Assembly (NCBI GenBank): GCA_963082975.1
Contig: OY720345.1
Location: forward strand, 15,588,491-15,652,490
Length of the DNA stretch: 64,000 nt
Direction: 5' to 3'
Source: Labia minor
Lineage: Eukaryota; Arthropoda; Insecta; Dermaptera; Spongiphoridae
The stretch's first letter is position 1. Each line of letters starts with the position of its first letter. This document shows, piece after piece, positions 2,438 through 64,000 of this stretch. The notes under the pieces are model-generated. The model saw only the letters and a list, made by a program, of their open reading frames with translations, did not search any database and was not told the origin of the DNA. The position numbers and the translations under genes were made by a program.

Positions 2438-2749
2438 GGAAAGGAAAGTTTTATTCATTCATATGGCACCGTGAAATGATCAGTAATCGCAAAACGGCAG
2501 GCATAACCCAACCTTCCCTTCCATCAAACAGGCATCACATTTTGGATTTAGTTGAGATTTAGTTAGGATCAGGGGAGGATTTAAGGGGAGTGGCTGACAA
2601 AGAAAAACGAATTATCCGTTCTTTTAAGGGGGGCGTAGACAATTCAAACGACCAAGATATATTGTTTAGGGAAAAAAAACACTTAGTAAAAGTTTGGATC
2701 AATTTTAGGAGAAAAACAAAATTGTTGTCAATTTATCTTAAAACAAAAA

Positions 2750-3292
2750 TATCTGGAGTGTCTCCAATCGATTATCTCGCAATTTTGAATTGGATTAATT
2801 AACATATATTATATCTAAATTAAATTTAATTAATTCAATTATAAATGAAAATTAATAAATAATATTTATTAAACCAGCGCGTGTTTGGCTCTTTGTTGAT
2901 GGCACCAAGTCACGTGCTGGGGTGTGATTTGCAGTGTTAAAAAATTAATTCTGGTACTTTCAGCGATTCAATCAAGTTGAAATTCTATATATAGCAGTTT
3001 TATACAATTTTTAATCATGTGAAAAACTAACAAACATTTATCTTTATTTTTAAGGTCAGTTTAGGGGGGGAAAAATGAAAACGTGGTAGGTAATGGTCCT
3101 CTTCCGAATGAGTTACATTTCTCATAAGTTGATAAAAAAAACTACGACTATTGAATAATACTCGTGTGCTAAATCTTGTCTACACATACACACTTACACA
3201 CAGACATTTTCTCAACCTTAGTGACTCAGGGACCTTCAAAACGTATAAAAACATCAAAATCACGACATTGAAAATTTTCTAGCGAGATAGTA
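2750..3292 (+). repeat. Dispersed repeat family A, copy 1
   Basis: This stretch recurs at 12.4 kb (same strand), at 21.8-22.6 kb and at 63.9 kb (both reversed). Shared landmarks are GGAGTGTCTCC at one end, a GC-richer block GCGCGTGTTTGGCTC..GTTGATGG with CACGTG, then CTATATATAGCAG, AACCGGAAGAGGG-like text, a (CA)n tract and ACCTTCAAAACGTATAAAAA. No terminal inverted repeats or tRNA head are apparent and no long frame, so the class is unknown. It may be a non-autonomous element or a LINE 3' region. Confidence 0.7.
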
Positions 3293-4079: not shown

Positions 4080-4590
4080 TGCTAATACACACACACACAC
4101 ACACATTTTAAAAAATTATAATATAATATAAATTCCATAATATTTTAACACGTTCCCGCCGGCATATACCACCGGTGGCTCATGCCGCCACATAAAATAA
4201 ATAGACAAATTATCGAGCCGGTGGTATGTATTTTTAACACCCACACACACACACACACACATTTTAAAAAATTATATTATAAAGTTTTGTTAAAATCACA
4301 AAGCTTTTCCATAATATTTTATCACGTTCCCGCCGGCATGTACCACCGGTGGCTCATACCGCCACATAAAATAAATAGACAAATTATCGAGCCGGTGGTA
4401 TGTATTTTTAACACCCACACACACACACACACACATTTTAAAAAATTATATTATAAAGTTTTGTTAAAATCACAAAGCTTTTCCATAATATTTTATCACG
4501 TTCCCGCCGGCATGTACCACCGGTGGCTCATACCGCCACATAAAATAAATAAACAAATTATGGAGCCGGTGGTATGTATTTTTATATTGT
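4080..4590. repeat. Tandem 174-bp repeat, nearly three units, each with a CA tract
   Basis: CGTTCCCGCCGGCAT begins at 4151, 4325 and 4499, giving an exact 174-bp period; the first unit is more diverged and a partial unit precedes it. Each unit contains a GC-rich core with CACCGGTGG and, about 50 bp on, its partial complement GAGCCGGTGGTATG, so the core can fold, and then a (CA)8-9 microsatellite. Because 174 is divisible by three, a frame stays open through the array; it is not a gene. A single core copy lies at 8.26 kb. Confidence 0.9.
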
Positions 4591-8258: not shown

Positions 8259-8259
8259 A

Positions 8260-8338
8260 CGTTCCCGACGGCATGTACCACCGGTGGCTCAAGTCGCCAC
8301 ATAAAATAAATAGACAAATTATGGAGCAGGCGGGAACG
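8260..8338. mobile_element. Solitary core copy of the 174-bp repeat, bounded by inverted termini
   Basis: CGTTCCCG at the left and CGGGAACG at the right are perfect inverted ends 79 bp apart. The interior (GGCATGTACCACCGGTGG, then CCACATAAAATAAATAGAC) is the same as the core of the tandem array at 4.1-4.6 kb. Here the CA tract is absent. This suggests the core is a tiny mobile or palindromic element and that the array grew from it. Confidence 0.6.
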
Positions 8339-12382: not shown

Positions 12383-12771
12383 GTCAACATTCAATCAAGC
12401 TGAAATTCTATATATAGCAGTTTTATACAATTTTTAATCATGAGAAAAATTATCAAATATATATATCTTTATTTTTGCGGTCAATTTAGAGGAAAAAAAA
12501 TGAAAACGTGATAGGTAATGACCCTCTTCCGGTTGAGCTACAATTCTCAAAAGTTGAAAGAAAACTACAAATTTTGAATAATGCCCATGTACCAAATTTC
12601 ATGATTCTATCTCAAACCGCTTTTGAGTAATCTTGTCTACATACACACACACACACACACAAACAAACATTTTTCTCAACCTTAGTGAAAATGATTCAGG
12701 AACCTTCAAAACGTATAAAAACATCAAAATCTCAACAACGAAAATTCTCGTGATCTGGCGAGATAGTAATT
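12383..12771 (+). repeat. Dispersed repeat family A, copy 2 (partial)
   Basis: Begins at ATTCAATCAAGCTGAAATTC and runs through CTATATATAGCAG, CCGGTTGAGCTAC, a (CA)n tract at about 12645-12662 and ACCTTCAAAACGTATAAAAA. It lacks the GGAGTGTCTCC and CACGTG part present in copies 1 and 3. Confidence 0.75.
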
Positions 12772-21789: not shown

Positions 21790-22615
21790 GCGTAAGAGAT
21801 AGTATTGCGGTCACGAAAATTTTCGATGTTGAGATTTTGATGTTTTTATACGTTTTGAAGGTTCCTGAATCATTTTCACTAAGGTTGAGAAAAATGTCTG
21901 TGTGTGTGTGTATGTGTGTGTGTATGTATGTATGTAGACAAGATTACGCAAAAACGGTTTGAGCTAGAATGATGAAATTTGGTACATGGGCATTATTCAA
22001 AATTCATAGTTTTCTATCAACTTTTGAGAAATGTAGCTCAACCGGAAGAGGGTCATTACTTACAACATTTTGATTTTTTCTCTCTAAAGTGACTGTAAAA
22101 ATAAAGATATATTTTGATAATTTTTCACATGATTGAAAATTGTATAAAACTGCTATATATAGAATTTCAGAAATTTAATATTCTTCTTCCCATAAATATG
22201 CACGAATATCGGATTTTTATTTTTATTTTTGAGAAATGTATCTCATTCGGAAGAATACTATTACCTAGAACGTTTTCATTTTTCCCCCTCAAAACTGACC
22301 ATAAAAATAAAGATATACGGTATGCTTGATAGTTTTTCACATAATCAAAAATTGTATAAAACTGCTATTTAGTATTTCAGCATGACTGAATTGGTGAAAG
22401 TGCCAGAATTAATTTTTTAACACTGCAAATCTCACGCGCCAACACGTGACGTGGTTCTATCAACAAAGAGCCAAACATGCACTGGTTTAATAAATATTAT
22501 TTATTAATTTTAATTTATAATTTATAATTAATTAAATTTAATTTAAATATAATATATTATGTTATTTAATCCAATTCAAATTGCGAGATAGTCGAATGGA
22601 GACACTCCAGCTTAT
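21790..22615 (-). repeat. Dispersed repeat family A, copy 3 (longest)
   Basis: Reverse-oriented relative to copies 1 and 2. It contains the CA tract (here GT, 21899-21935), the CCGGAAGAGGG block and both the CACGTG/GCGCC part and GGAGACACTCC at its far end. Internally it is duplicated: the block TTTTTCACAT..GAAAATTGTATAAAACTGCTAT occurs near 22122 and again near 22332, so it is a composite of two overlapping copies or carries an internal tandem duplication. Confidence 0.75.
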
Positions 22616-22831
22616 TTTTTTTTGTTTTAATAAAAATTTACTCATAAATAAAAAACTATTTTAAAAATTAAAATAAATATATAAACCTGGAAGATTTTTG
22701 TAATTTGTCAAAGATTTTTAATGTAGAAAATATGCCGATTATTTATATTAATATTATATATTATATGTCGATTATTTTGTGATAATTCATGTGTTACTGG
22801 TTGACAGGATAGTATTCTAAGCTAAGATTTA

Positions 22832-26323: not shown

Positions 26324-37356
<11,033 letters not shown>

Positions 37357-62099: not shown

Positions 62100-62142
62100 A
62101 TCTATCTATCTATCTCTGTGGCTCTACGGAACTTGAAAGTTC
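62100..62142 (-). mobile_element. LINE 3' terminus (about 30 bp) with ATAG tail
   Basis: Read on the minus strand: AAGAACTTTCAAGTTCCGTA, then GAGCCACAGA and an (ATAG)n tail. This is the last bit of the LINE family at 35.1 kb. It sits directly beside the displaced USP32 segment. Confidence 0.85.
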
Positions 62143-62496
62143 TTCAGATGCTCTGAAAAGCCATCGGGCCAAAGTGCCACATTCTGTAGGGTGATTTGAA
62201 AGCCAAACGCTAAATTCATCAATAGTGGGACCTCCTCTTGACTCAGTCTAAAAATTTGAATGAAAATTTAATTAGAATTTTTATAATGTGATCAATCTAA
62301 CCATATAATTAAATATATAAAAATATTCATAATAGATATATATAATCTTTTAAATTCTAACTCTAAACATTAATTTAAACATTAATTTAAATATACTAGA
62401 ATTTATATTTTTAATACATTTGTTCTTTTTAAAAATATATAGAGTATTCAAAATTATATTTAATAAAAATAGATGAAATTTAATAAAAAATGAATA
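62143..62496 (-). pseudogene. Displaced copy of USP32 exon 5 part plus intron 4 part
   Basis: These 354 bp equal 34319-34672 in the USP32 gene with the same length and about four substitutions, all in the intronic part; the 103 exonic bases are identical. It keeps the exon 5 acceptor and unspliced intron 4 sequence, so it derives from DNA or unspliced RNA. It is in the same orientation as USP32 and lies between two LINE 3' ends. It cannot code for a functional product by itself. Confidence 0.95.
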
Positions 62497-62840
62497 TCTA
62501 TCTCTGTGGCTCTACGGAACTCGAAAGTTCTTGGCTGCAGCAACCACACTTCTCCAAGTATACCTATTCTGAGCCACAACCCTCCAATCCCTACCCTCTC
62601 CCATCTCTCATCACGTCTCTTTCTACATTATCCACCTACCGACGTCCTTGTCCTTCCAAGCGGGCGTTTCCCACTCGGTCTCCCCACCAATATATTTTTC
62701 GCCATTCTTTCCTCTCCCATTCTAGCCACGTGCCCTGCCCATCGCAGCTTTCTCGATTTTATAATTCTAACTATACCTGGAGATGCATAGAGGTGATGCA
62801 ATTCCTTGTTATGCAGTCTCCGCCATTCCCCGGTGTACTC
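62497..62840 (-). mobile_element. LINE 3' fragment, same family as 35.1 kb
   Basis: Minus strand carries the LINE C-terminal region in broken frames (homologous to 35085-35415), with the 3' end GTTCCGTAGAGCCACAGAGA and an ATAG tail at 62497-62503. 5'-truncated at about 62840 at GCCATTCCCCGGTG. Younger or better kept than the 52.7-kb fragment. Confidence 0.85.
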
Positions 62841-63540
62841 ATAAATCTCTTAAGGGATTATATTATATATATAATCTTATTTAATTATTTAAATGATTCT
62901 TCCAATAATTCCTATAAAAAAATATACCGCCACTTACATTTGAAGAATTTTAAGAAATAAAATTATATGCTCGATTACAATAGGATTTATAAAAAAATAA
63001 ATTAATAATATACTATCAATCATATTTTAGTCTGAAATACACACATAAATAAATAGTCTGTATAGTATAGAACACATTAAAAAAAAAAAAAATTAATTAA
63101 TAGTTTGTTTTTTTTTAATATTTTTAAAAAATGAAATTATATTGTCGTACATTTTTTAATAAAATTTATTTATTTATTTATTTTGTTTATTTTATCATCC
63201 TTCTCTTCTTCTATTCTCACCACCCACCCTTTGAAGTATTTAATTAAAAAAAAAATTAAATTTAAAATAATCATTATTTTTTCTCTCTCTCGAACTTTGG
63301 GTCGTAAAATTAAAATTTAATTAGAATTTTAAAATTAAGTTTTTTCGTTTTTTTCGTTTCTTTTATTTTTTCAACTTTTTTCTAGTCATTCTTCTATTTA
63401 ATTGATATTAAATATTCTTTTAATGTTATATACAACATCTCGCAACTTAATAGAATATGAACAATTTCAATATATTTTTCTATAGACTGGGTTCAATGCC
63501 ACAAGAGTGAAGAAATATATATGTATAGAATATATATATA
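62841..63540. other. AT-rich spacer
   Basis: A TTTATTTATTTATTTATTTT run at about 63165-63185 and a pyrimidine-rich patch near 63200-63230; nothing gene-like. Confidence 0.5.
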
Positions 63541-63867: not shown

Positions 63868-64000
63868 CTGCCAAAGATAGTATTGCGATCACGAAAATTT
63901 TCAATGTCGAGATTTTGATGTTTTTATACGTTGTGAAGGTCCCTGAGTCATTTTCACTAAGGCTGAGGAAAAATGTCTGTGTAGAAAAGATTACGCAAAA
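63868..64000 (-). repeat. Dispersed repeat family A, copy 4, cut by the window edge
   Basis: Starts at GATAGTATTGCGATCACGAA and runs through GAGATTTTGATGTTTTTATA and GTTGAGGAAAAATGTC-like text to ATTACGCAAAA, parallel to copy 3 at 21.79-21.96 kb. The GT tract is nearly absent here. Confidence 0.8.

Follow-up and report, generated by a model that had tools for sequence, protein, structure and literature searches.

Structure of the composite locus

How did an intron-bearing piece of a gene come to lie between two 3' ends of one LINE family? The question is raised by a locus of Labia minor, located near the end of the 64,000-nucleotide stretch of contig OY720345.1 that was analysed here (hereafter, the window). 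The initial annotation explained it by a LINE reverse transcriptase jumping between RNA templates.

The LINE-gene-LINE arrangement of this locus was confirmed (Table 1). The LINE and the gene both have their sense on the minus strand. In that direction, the composite begins with a target repeat and the inner LINE, running from 62842 to 62495 and ending with the 3' terminus GAGATAGATA. It continues with the intron and exon piece (62496 to 62143) and the last 38 nt of a LINE. The outer LINE end (62144 to 62101) has an AGAT tail, the longer of the two, and the other target repeat closes the composite. As had been proposed, 3' ends of one LINE family are found in the same orientation on both sides of the gene piece, and all three parts are in their sense direction, with the intron retained. 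Of the 39 other listed copies, 32 align with the segment 62495-62842 over its full 348 bases, and the 5' end of the inner LINE was therefore placed at 62842.

Table 1. Positions in the window of the parts of the composite and of related segments
Feature	Position	Strand	Remarks
Left copy of target duplication, 10 bp, AATCTCTTAA	62091..62100	.	exact repeat, abuts the tail
Outer LINE 3' end, (ATCT)n tail and LINE	62101..62144	-	tail from 62101
Outer LINE piece, 38 bp	62107-62144	-	direct repeat of 62495-62532, 37/38 identical
USP32-like gene copy, 354 bp: first 105 nt of exon and last 249 nt of preceding intron	62143..62496	- (gene sense)	
Inner LINE 3' end, 5'-truncated	62495..62842	-	has two 1-bp insertions and an in-frame stop when compared with the 35.1-kb copy
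Right copy of target duplication, 10 bp, AATCTCTTAA	62844..62853	.	exact repeat
Source segment within the USP32-like gene	34319..34672	-	
Older copy of the LINE family, located upstream of the source segment in the USP32-like gene	35072..35924	-	

The gene piece and its source

The identity of about 99% previously estimated for the gene piece was borne out by alignment: 62143-62496 and 34319-34672 match without gaps over 354 bp at 98.87% identity, and all four mismatches fall within the intron part. In the source, the splice acceptor AG, as read from the sequence, has its last base at 34424, and the first base of the donor is at 34779; therefore, the copy consists of the beginning of an exon and the end of the preceding intron. 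The source gene, which we take to be USP32, has a UCH match and sub-threshold EF-hand Pfam matches in its other exons, and the frame of the copied exon gave no match in PDB at E values up to 1. The source is located 28 kb from the copy; the two share a chromosome and have the same orientation along it.

When the gene segment and the LINE were searched for in the 604-Mb genome of the same species, the 41 listed matches comprised the composite, the source and 39 LINE copies. Because 40 of 6,407 candidates were scored, weaker copies of the gene segment may have been missed. Identity ends at both limits of the 354 bp, and we therefore rejected a segmental duplication that had involved a longer tract. 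An assembly error or haplotype artefact, in favour of which nothing was found, is regarded as very improbable, given 4 differences between copy and source and the position of the locus inside a 95-Mb contig.

Neither edge of the gene piece carries poly(A), and it contains no spliced junction. The claim that its template was RNA was accordingly not borne out, the intron being kept and nothing being spliced; retention of the intron and the missing poly(A) neither prove nor exclude a pre-mRNA.

A single target site for both LINE ends

A joint target duplication had been suggested as a check on the origin of the composite, and it was detected: AATCTCTTAA, a direct repeat of 10 bp without mismatches, occurs on both sides of the structure as a whole, adjoining the outer tail on one side and lying 1-2 bp from the 5' end of the inner LINE on the other. 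By the same rule, repeats of at least 10 bp were found for 125 of 199,626 random pairs of window positions (6.3e-4). No such repeat was found at the inner LINE's own tail, where the best match is 5 bp.

The length of the duplication is supported as typical of the family. Apart from the inner LINE, 27 copies whose match to it breaks off early were examined, and eight of them have repeats of 7-16 bp, one of which is badly placed (a count made without a shuffle control). In a looser scan of 78 loci, repeats of at least 10 bp were found downstream in 19 and upstream, which served as the control, in 6. The same scan gave an 11-bp AT-rich match 289 bp past the inner LINE; it lies off the boundary and was taken as chance.

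Since the AATCTCTTAA repeat is single and shared, the inner and outer LINE ends have one target site. This means that either the parts arrived together or the insert entered the LINE later, a joint duplication being expected also if an older LINE subsequently received the insert.

Junctions between the LINE and the gene piece

The overlaps at the two junctions, previously given as 2-6 bp, are in fact 2 bp each (TT and TA). This is the level expected by chance, as 24% of random joins have an overlap of at least 2 bp. The inner LINE begins in its ATCT tail, like most of the printed copies of the family.

The point of departure from the LINE, 38 nt from its 3' end, lies at the site GCTGCAGCC and reads GCC*A in the LINE sense, a motif that fits 2 of the 345 positions of the inner LINE. 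It should be mentioned that this match was noticed post hoc, that the motif comes from a different LINE and that the ambiguous 2 bp have to be given to the LINE; at the second junction GCC*A does not fit. The outer 38-bp piece differs from the inner LINE at one position, a T at a CpG that is rare in the family (2 of 38 copies), and it contains no variant by which descent from the inner LINE could be recognized or dismissed.

The LINE family and the age of the inner LINE

The inner LINE departs from the majority sequence of 46 other copies by 11 substitutions over 339 positions and by two one-base insertions; the first stands in a column that is empty in all 46 copies, the second in a column where one copy alone has a base, and a different one. 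Its terminal branch (0.027) is ordinary within this sample, and its reading frame is disrupted by the insertions and one stop. The 46 copies are a non-random sample, because they were picked for resembling the inner LINE or for an exact match to a 32-base motif. Equal age of the inner LINE and the gene copy was evaluated with correction for base composition: P was 0.017-0.029 when the source intron was also allowed to mutate and 0.12-0.16 when all differences were charged to the copy alone. These divergences suggest that the inner LINE predates the gene copy, which has diverged by 1.1%.

Relatives of the inner LINE were also searched for in the 604-Mb genome, the best 40 of 5,673 candidates being scored. 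No listed copy exceeds 93% (blast) or 94.8% (gap-free) identity to it, and thus none of them can be recognized as a surviving template of the inner LINE. Within the 46 copies and those of the window, no pair is more than 97.6% identical. One family copy has a terminal branch of 0.0078, and this branch length leaves room for recent activity of the family.

The LINE at 35.1 kb had been proposed as a possible guide of a DNA-level exchange. Its segment 35072-35411 and the inner LINE share only about 87% identity; therefore it is not a recent copy of the latter, and a recent exchange guided by it was rejected as the origin of the inner LINE. In the same element, the segment 35745-35924 matches RVT_1 with E 1.3e-4, below the cut-off of Pfam. 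The family may belong to the RTE clade, which is marked by an RTE-type reverse transcriptase and a short repeat tail; an ATCT tail is observed here beside this sub-threshold match. The two LINE copies of the window differ at 10, 11 and 16 sites in the three codon positions (P 0.43), which gives no significant signal of codon-position bias.

No relatives of the LINE were found in viral contigs. Of 118 pattern matches in genome contigs, one proved to be a relative, and it lies in a Rickettsiales MAG: positions 1501-1629 of contig JAITUS010000078.1 encode a relative of the LINE protein, with 53% identity over 43 residues. This is probably host contamination.

Template jumping or copying of DNA

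The initial annotation assigned all three parts to a single recent event. This does not agree well with an inner LINE that looks older than the gene copy, with the lack of a close genomic source for it among the listed copies and with a gene located 28 kb away. Other elements of the template-jump reading held up, namely the joint duplication, the sense concordance of the parts, the chance-level junctions and the start in the tail; the RNA template and the single recent event found no such support.

We tentatively prefer the reading in which jumping of the LINE reverse transcriptase produced both the gene piece and the 38-nt outer LINE end, and consider it not quite an even possibility. According to it, target-primed synthesis would begin at the tail of the LINE RNA, the enzyme would leave this template after 38 nt, and 354 nt of USP32 RNA with the intron still present would be copied next. 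The last step can be imagined in two forms. In the double-jump form, the enzyme would move back onto LINE RNA, at the 3' tail of another molecule; such a double jump in one event is, in our opinion, rather doubtful. In the single-jump form, the two-part product would be inserted into the tail of an older LINE. The identity of the parts, their order and orientation, the direct repeats and the start of the inner LINE in its tail are observed, and from them we infer the RNA template, the enzyme and the number of events.

The single-jump form implies two independent insertions, an old LINE followed by a LINE-USP32 chimera in its tail. It accounts for the older inner LINE and needs one jump only; besides, bipartite chimeras exceed tripartite ones 33 to 1 in Magnaporthe, according to the available part of the report (PMC2104539). 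On the other hand, LINE ends do not appear to attract further copies in the same orientation: a second LINE 3' end within 1.5 kb was found at 7 of 73 loci, on the same strand in two cases and on the opposite strand in five (the numbers are small, and a control with the reversed motif gave one match). Because same-strand ends are not in excess, targeting of the element to its own tail is unsupported. Any separate target repeat of the second insertion would be masked by the ATCT repeat. Two insertions are quite unlikely, and they are already counted within the chance given above to jumping. The same comparison led us to reject nearby same-strand LINE ends as something unusual in themselves, in view of the 7 loci with a second end and the single control match.

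With RNA as the template, a nascent transcript near the target site would be suggested by the intron that was kept and by a source only 28 kb away. It can be hypothesized that the LINE complex captured such an unspliced transcript from a gene 28 kb off along the chromosome and went back to LINE RNA afterwards; we consider this unlikely. If true, a target site can acquire sequence from RNA present in the chromatin around it, and if this is general, chimeras of LINE and intron-bearing host sequences are to be expected close to their source genes.

The distance of 28 kb in a 604-Mb genome is expected of local DNA copying, unlike a random choice of RNA. For RNA it would be natural only if nascent transcripts were preferred, or if analysis of a single window shows only local pairs. 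Templated insertion of DNA is to be weighed as a rival. It would start from an older LINE with its 10-bp repeat, in which a break or a stalled fork occurred at the 3' end. The free end would switch to USP32 using the TT overlap, copy 354 bp and return to the LINE tail using the TA overlap. A return 38 bp behind the point of departure would leave the 38-bp direct repeat on both sides, and reverse transcriptase would be unneeded. Copying of the neighbouring gene during DNA repair fits the data almost as well as template jumping, and we give it an appreciable chance, short of an even one.

The position of the source, on the same chromosome and in the same orientation, is natural for template switching in repair or replication, and an inner LINE that appears older than the gene copy, an insert lying between direct repeats with 37 of 38 positions identical, the 2-bp overlaps and the retained intron all agree with a DNA event. 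Another copy of the family (L081) also has non-LINE DNA within it. Such an event would nevertheless require several coincidences, which we argue from general considerations and did not compute: that the return point fell within a tail of 10-16 bp, that the gene and the LINE agree in sense (a one-in-two coincidence) and that a LINE of the same family was hit, which should be rare. To sum the two sides, the tail start, the sense concordance and the family-typical repeat favour the LINE enzyme, while the proximity of the source, the age of the inner LINE and the 38-bp flanking repeat favour a later DNA event. All other explanations together have a low probability. The chances assigned here to jumping, DNA insertion, artefact and the remaining explanations are our judgement and were not computed.

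Comparison with published systems

Template jumping is known for the R2 enzyme, as stated in the available part of the report (PMC8857657). For the MGL LINE of Magnaporthe, the text available to us described in 2007 tripartite chimeric retroelements that arise by a double template switch and have one flanking repeat; it also reports mouse cases of a double jump with a flanking repeat, and in the Magnaporthe chimeras it describes the switch motif GCC*A and no homology between the templates (PMC2104539). The composite resembles these elements in having three fused copies within one flanking direct repeat (14 bp in Magnaporthe and 10 bp here), in junction homology that does not exceed chance and in GCC*A at one junction. 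Unlike the Magnaporthe element, which joins three different RNAs, it consists of a LINE, an intron-bearing gene piece and again a LINE of the same family, with the source 28 kb off.

Mammalian LINE-1 chimeras with mRNA and small RNA have been catalogued and, as far as the accessible sections of the catalogue describe them, share with our locus a LINE 3' end fused to host sequence in sense. Their mRNA parts are mostly first exons, with splice sites at many exon-LINE junctions, whereas here an exon together with intron sequence lies between two LINE 3' ends (PMC13174262).

Human templated insertions derived from genes are also known, the templated sequence insertion polymorphisms of class 1 and class 2 (PMC5110952; comparison limited to the portions of the report at hand). 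In common with them, the insert described here is templated from elsewhere in the genome, and class 2 shows microhomology; the published insertions come from distant regions, whereas our source is 28 kb away and the site of insertion is a LINE end. Class 1 is characterized in these portions by a target duplication of at least 5 bp and a poly(A) tract with its signal, whereas the gene piece is flanked by a 38-bp repeat and has no poly(A). For class 2, they give the absence of target duplication together with microhomology, microdeletion or added bases, and here chance-level 2-bp overlaps and the 38-bp flanking repeat are found.

Among titles and openings of abstracts, mostly from outside the subscription literature, we found no report of an intron-bearing gene piece between copies of the same LINE. 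If template jumping produced the composite, the locus adds one more animal example of a double jump within a flanking repeat, unusual in the return to the same LINE family and in the carriage of an intron, and it makes it possible to ask whether LINE chimeras that contain introns tend to lie close to the genes they derive from. If the composite arose by DNA repair, it is a warning that a two-step LINE-gene-LINE structure with an outer target repeat can pass for a template jump.

Other composite LINE copies and repeats

Several other LINE copies with an unusual structure were revealed in the genome. Locus L110 (1233-1552, minus strand) departs from the LINE about 50 nt from its 3' end and rejoins it about 250 nt further, approximately 300 nt from the end; a 15-bp direct repeat lies outside. 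The structure of this copy would agree with template jumping but could also be due to a later deletion. In L081, the non-LINE DNA occupies about 258 bp (approximately 1573-1830), has a GT-rich end and lies inside a LINE whose parts overlap by about 10 bp. Locus L039 (1055-1547, minus strand) consists of LINE, about 170 bp of non-LINE sequence and LINE again in the same orientation. The LINE parts differ in divergence, with values of about 91% to the L118 reference and about 83% to the inner LINE.

The window itself contains a 174-bp tandem repeat at 4133-4584 (2.6 copies, 98% alike), with a 69-bp relative at 8259-8327. A dispersed repeat is located at 2741-3279, 12389-12755, 21797-22623 and 63875-63982, its copies being about 79-97% alike and present in both orientations.
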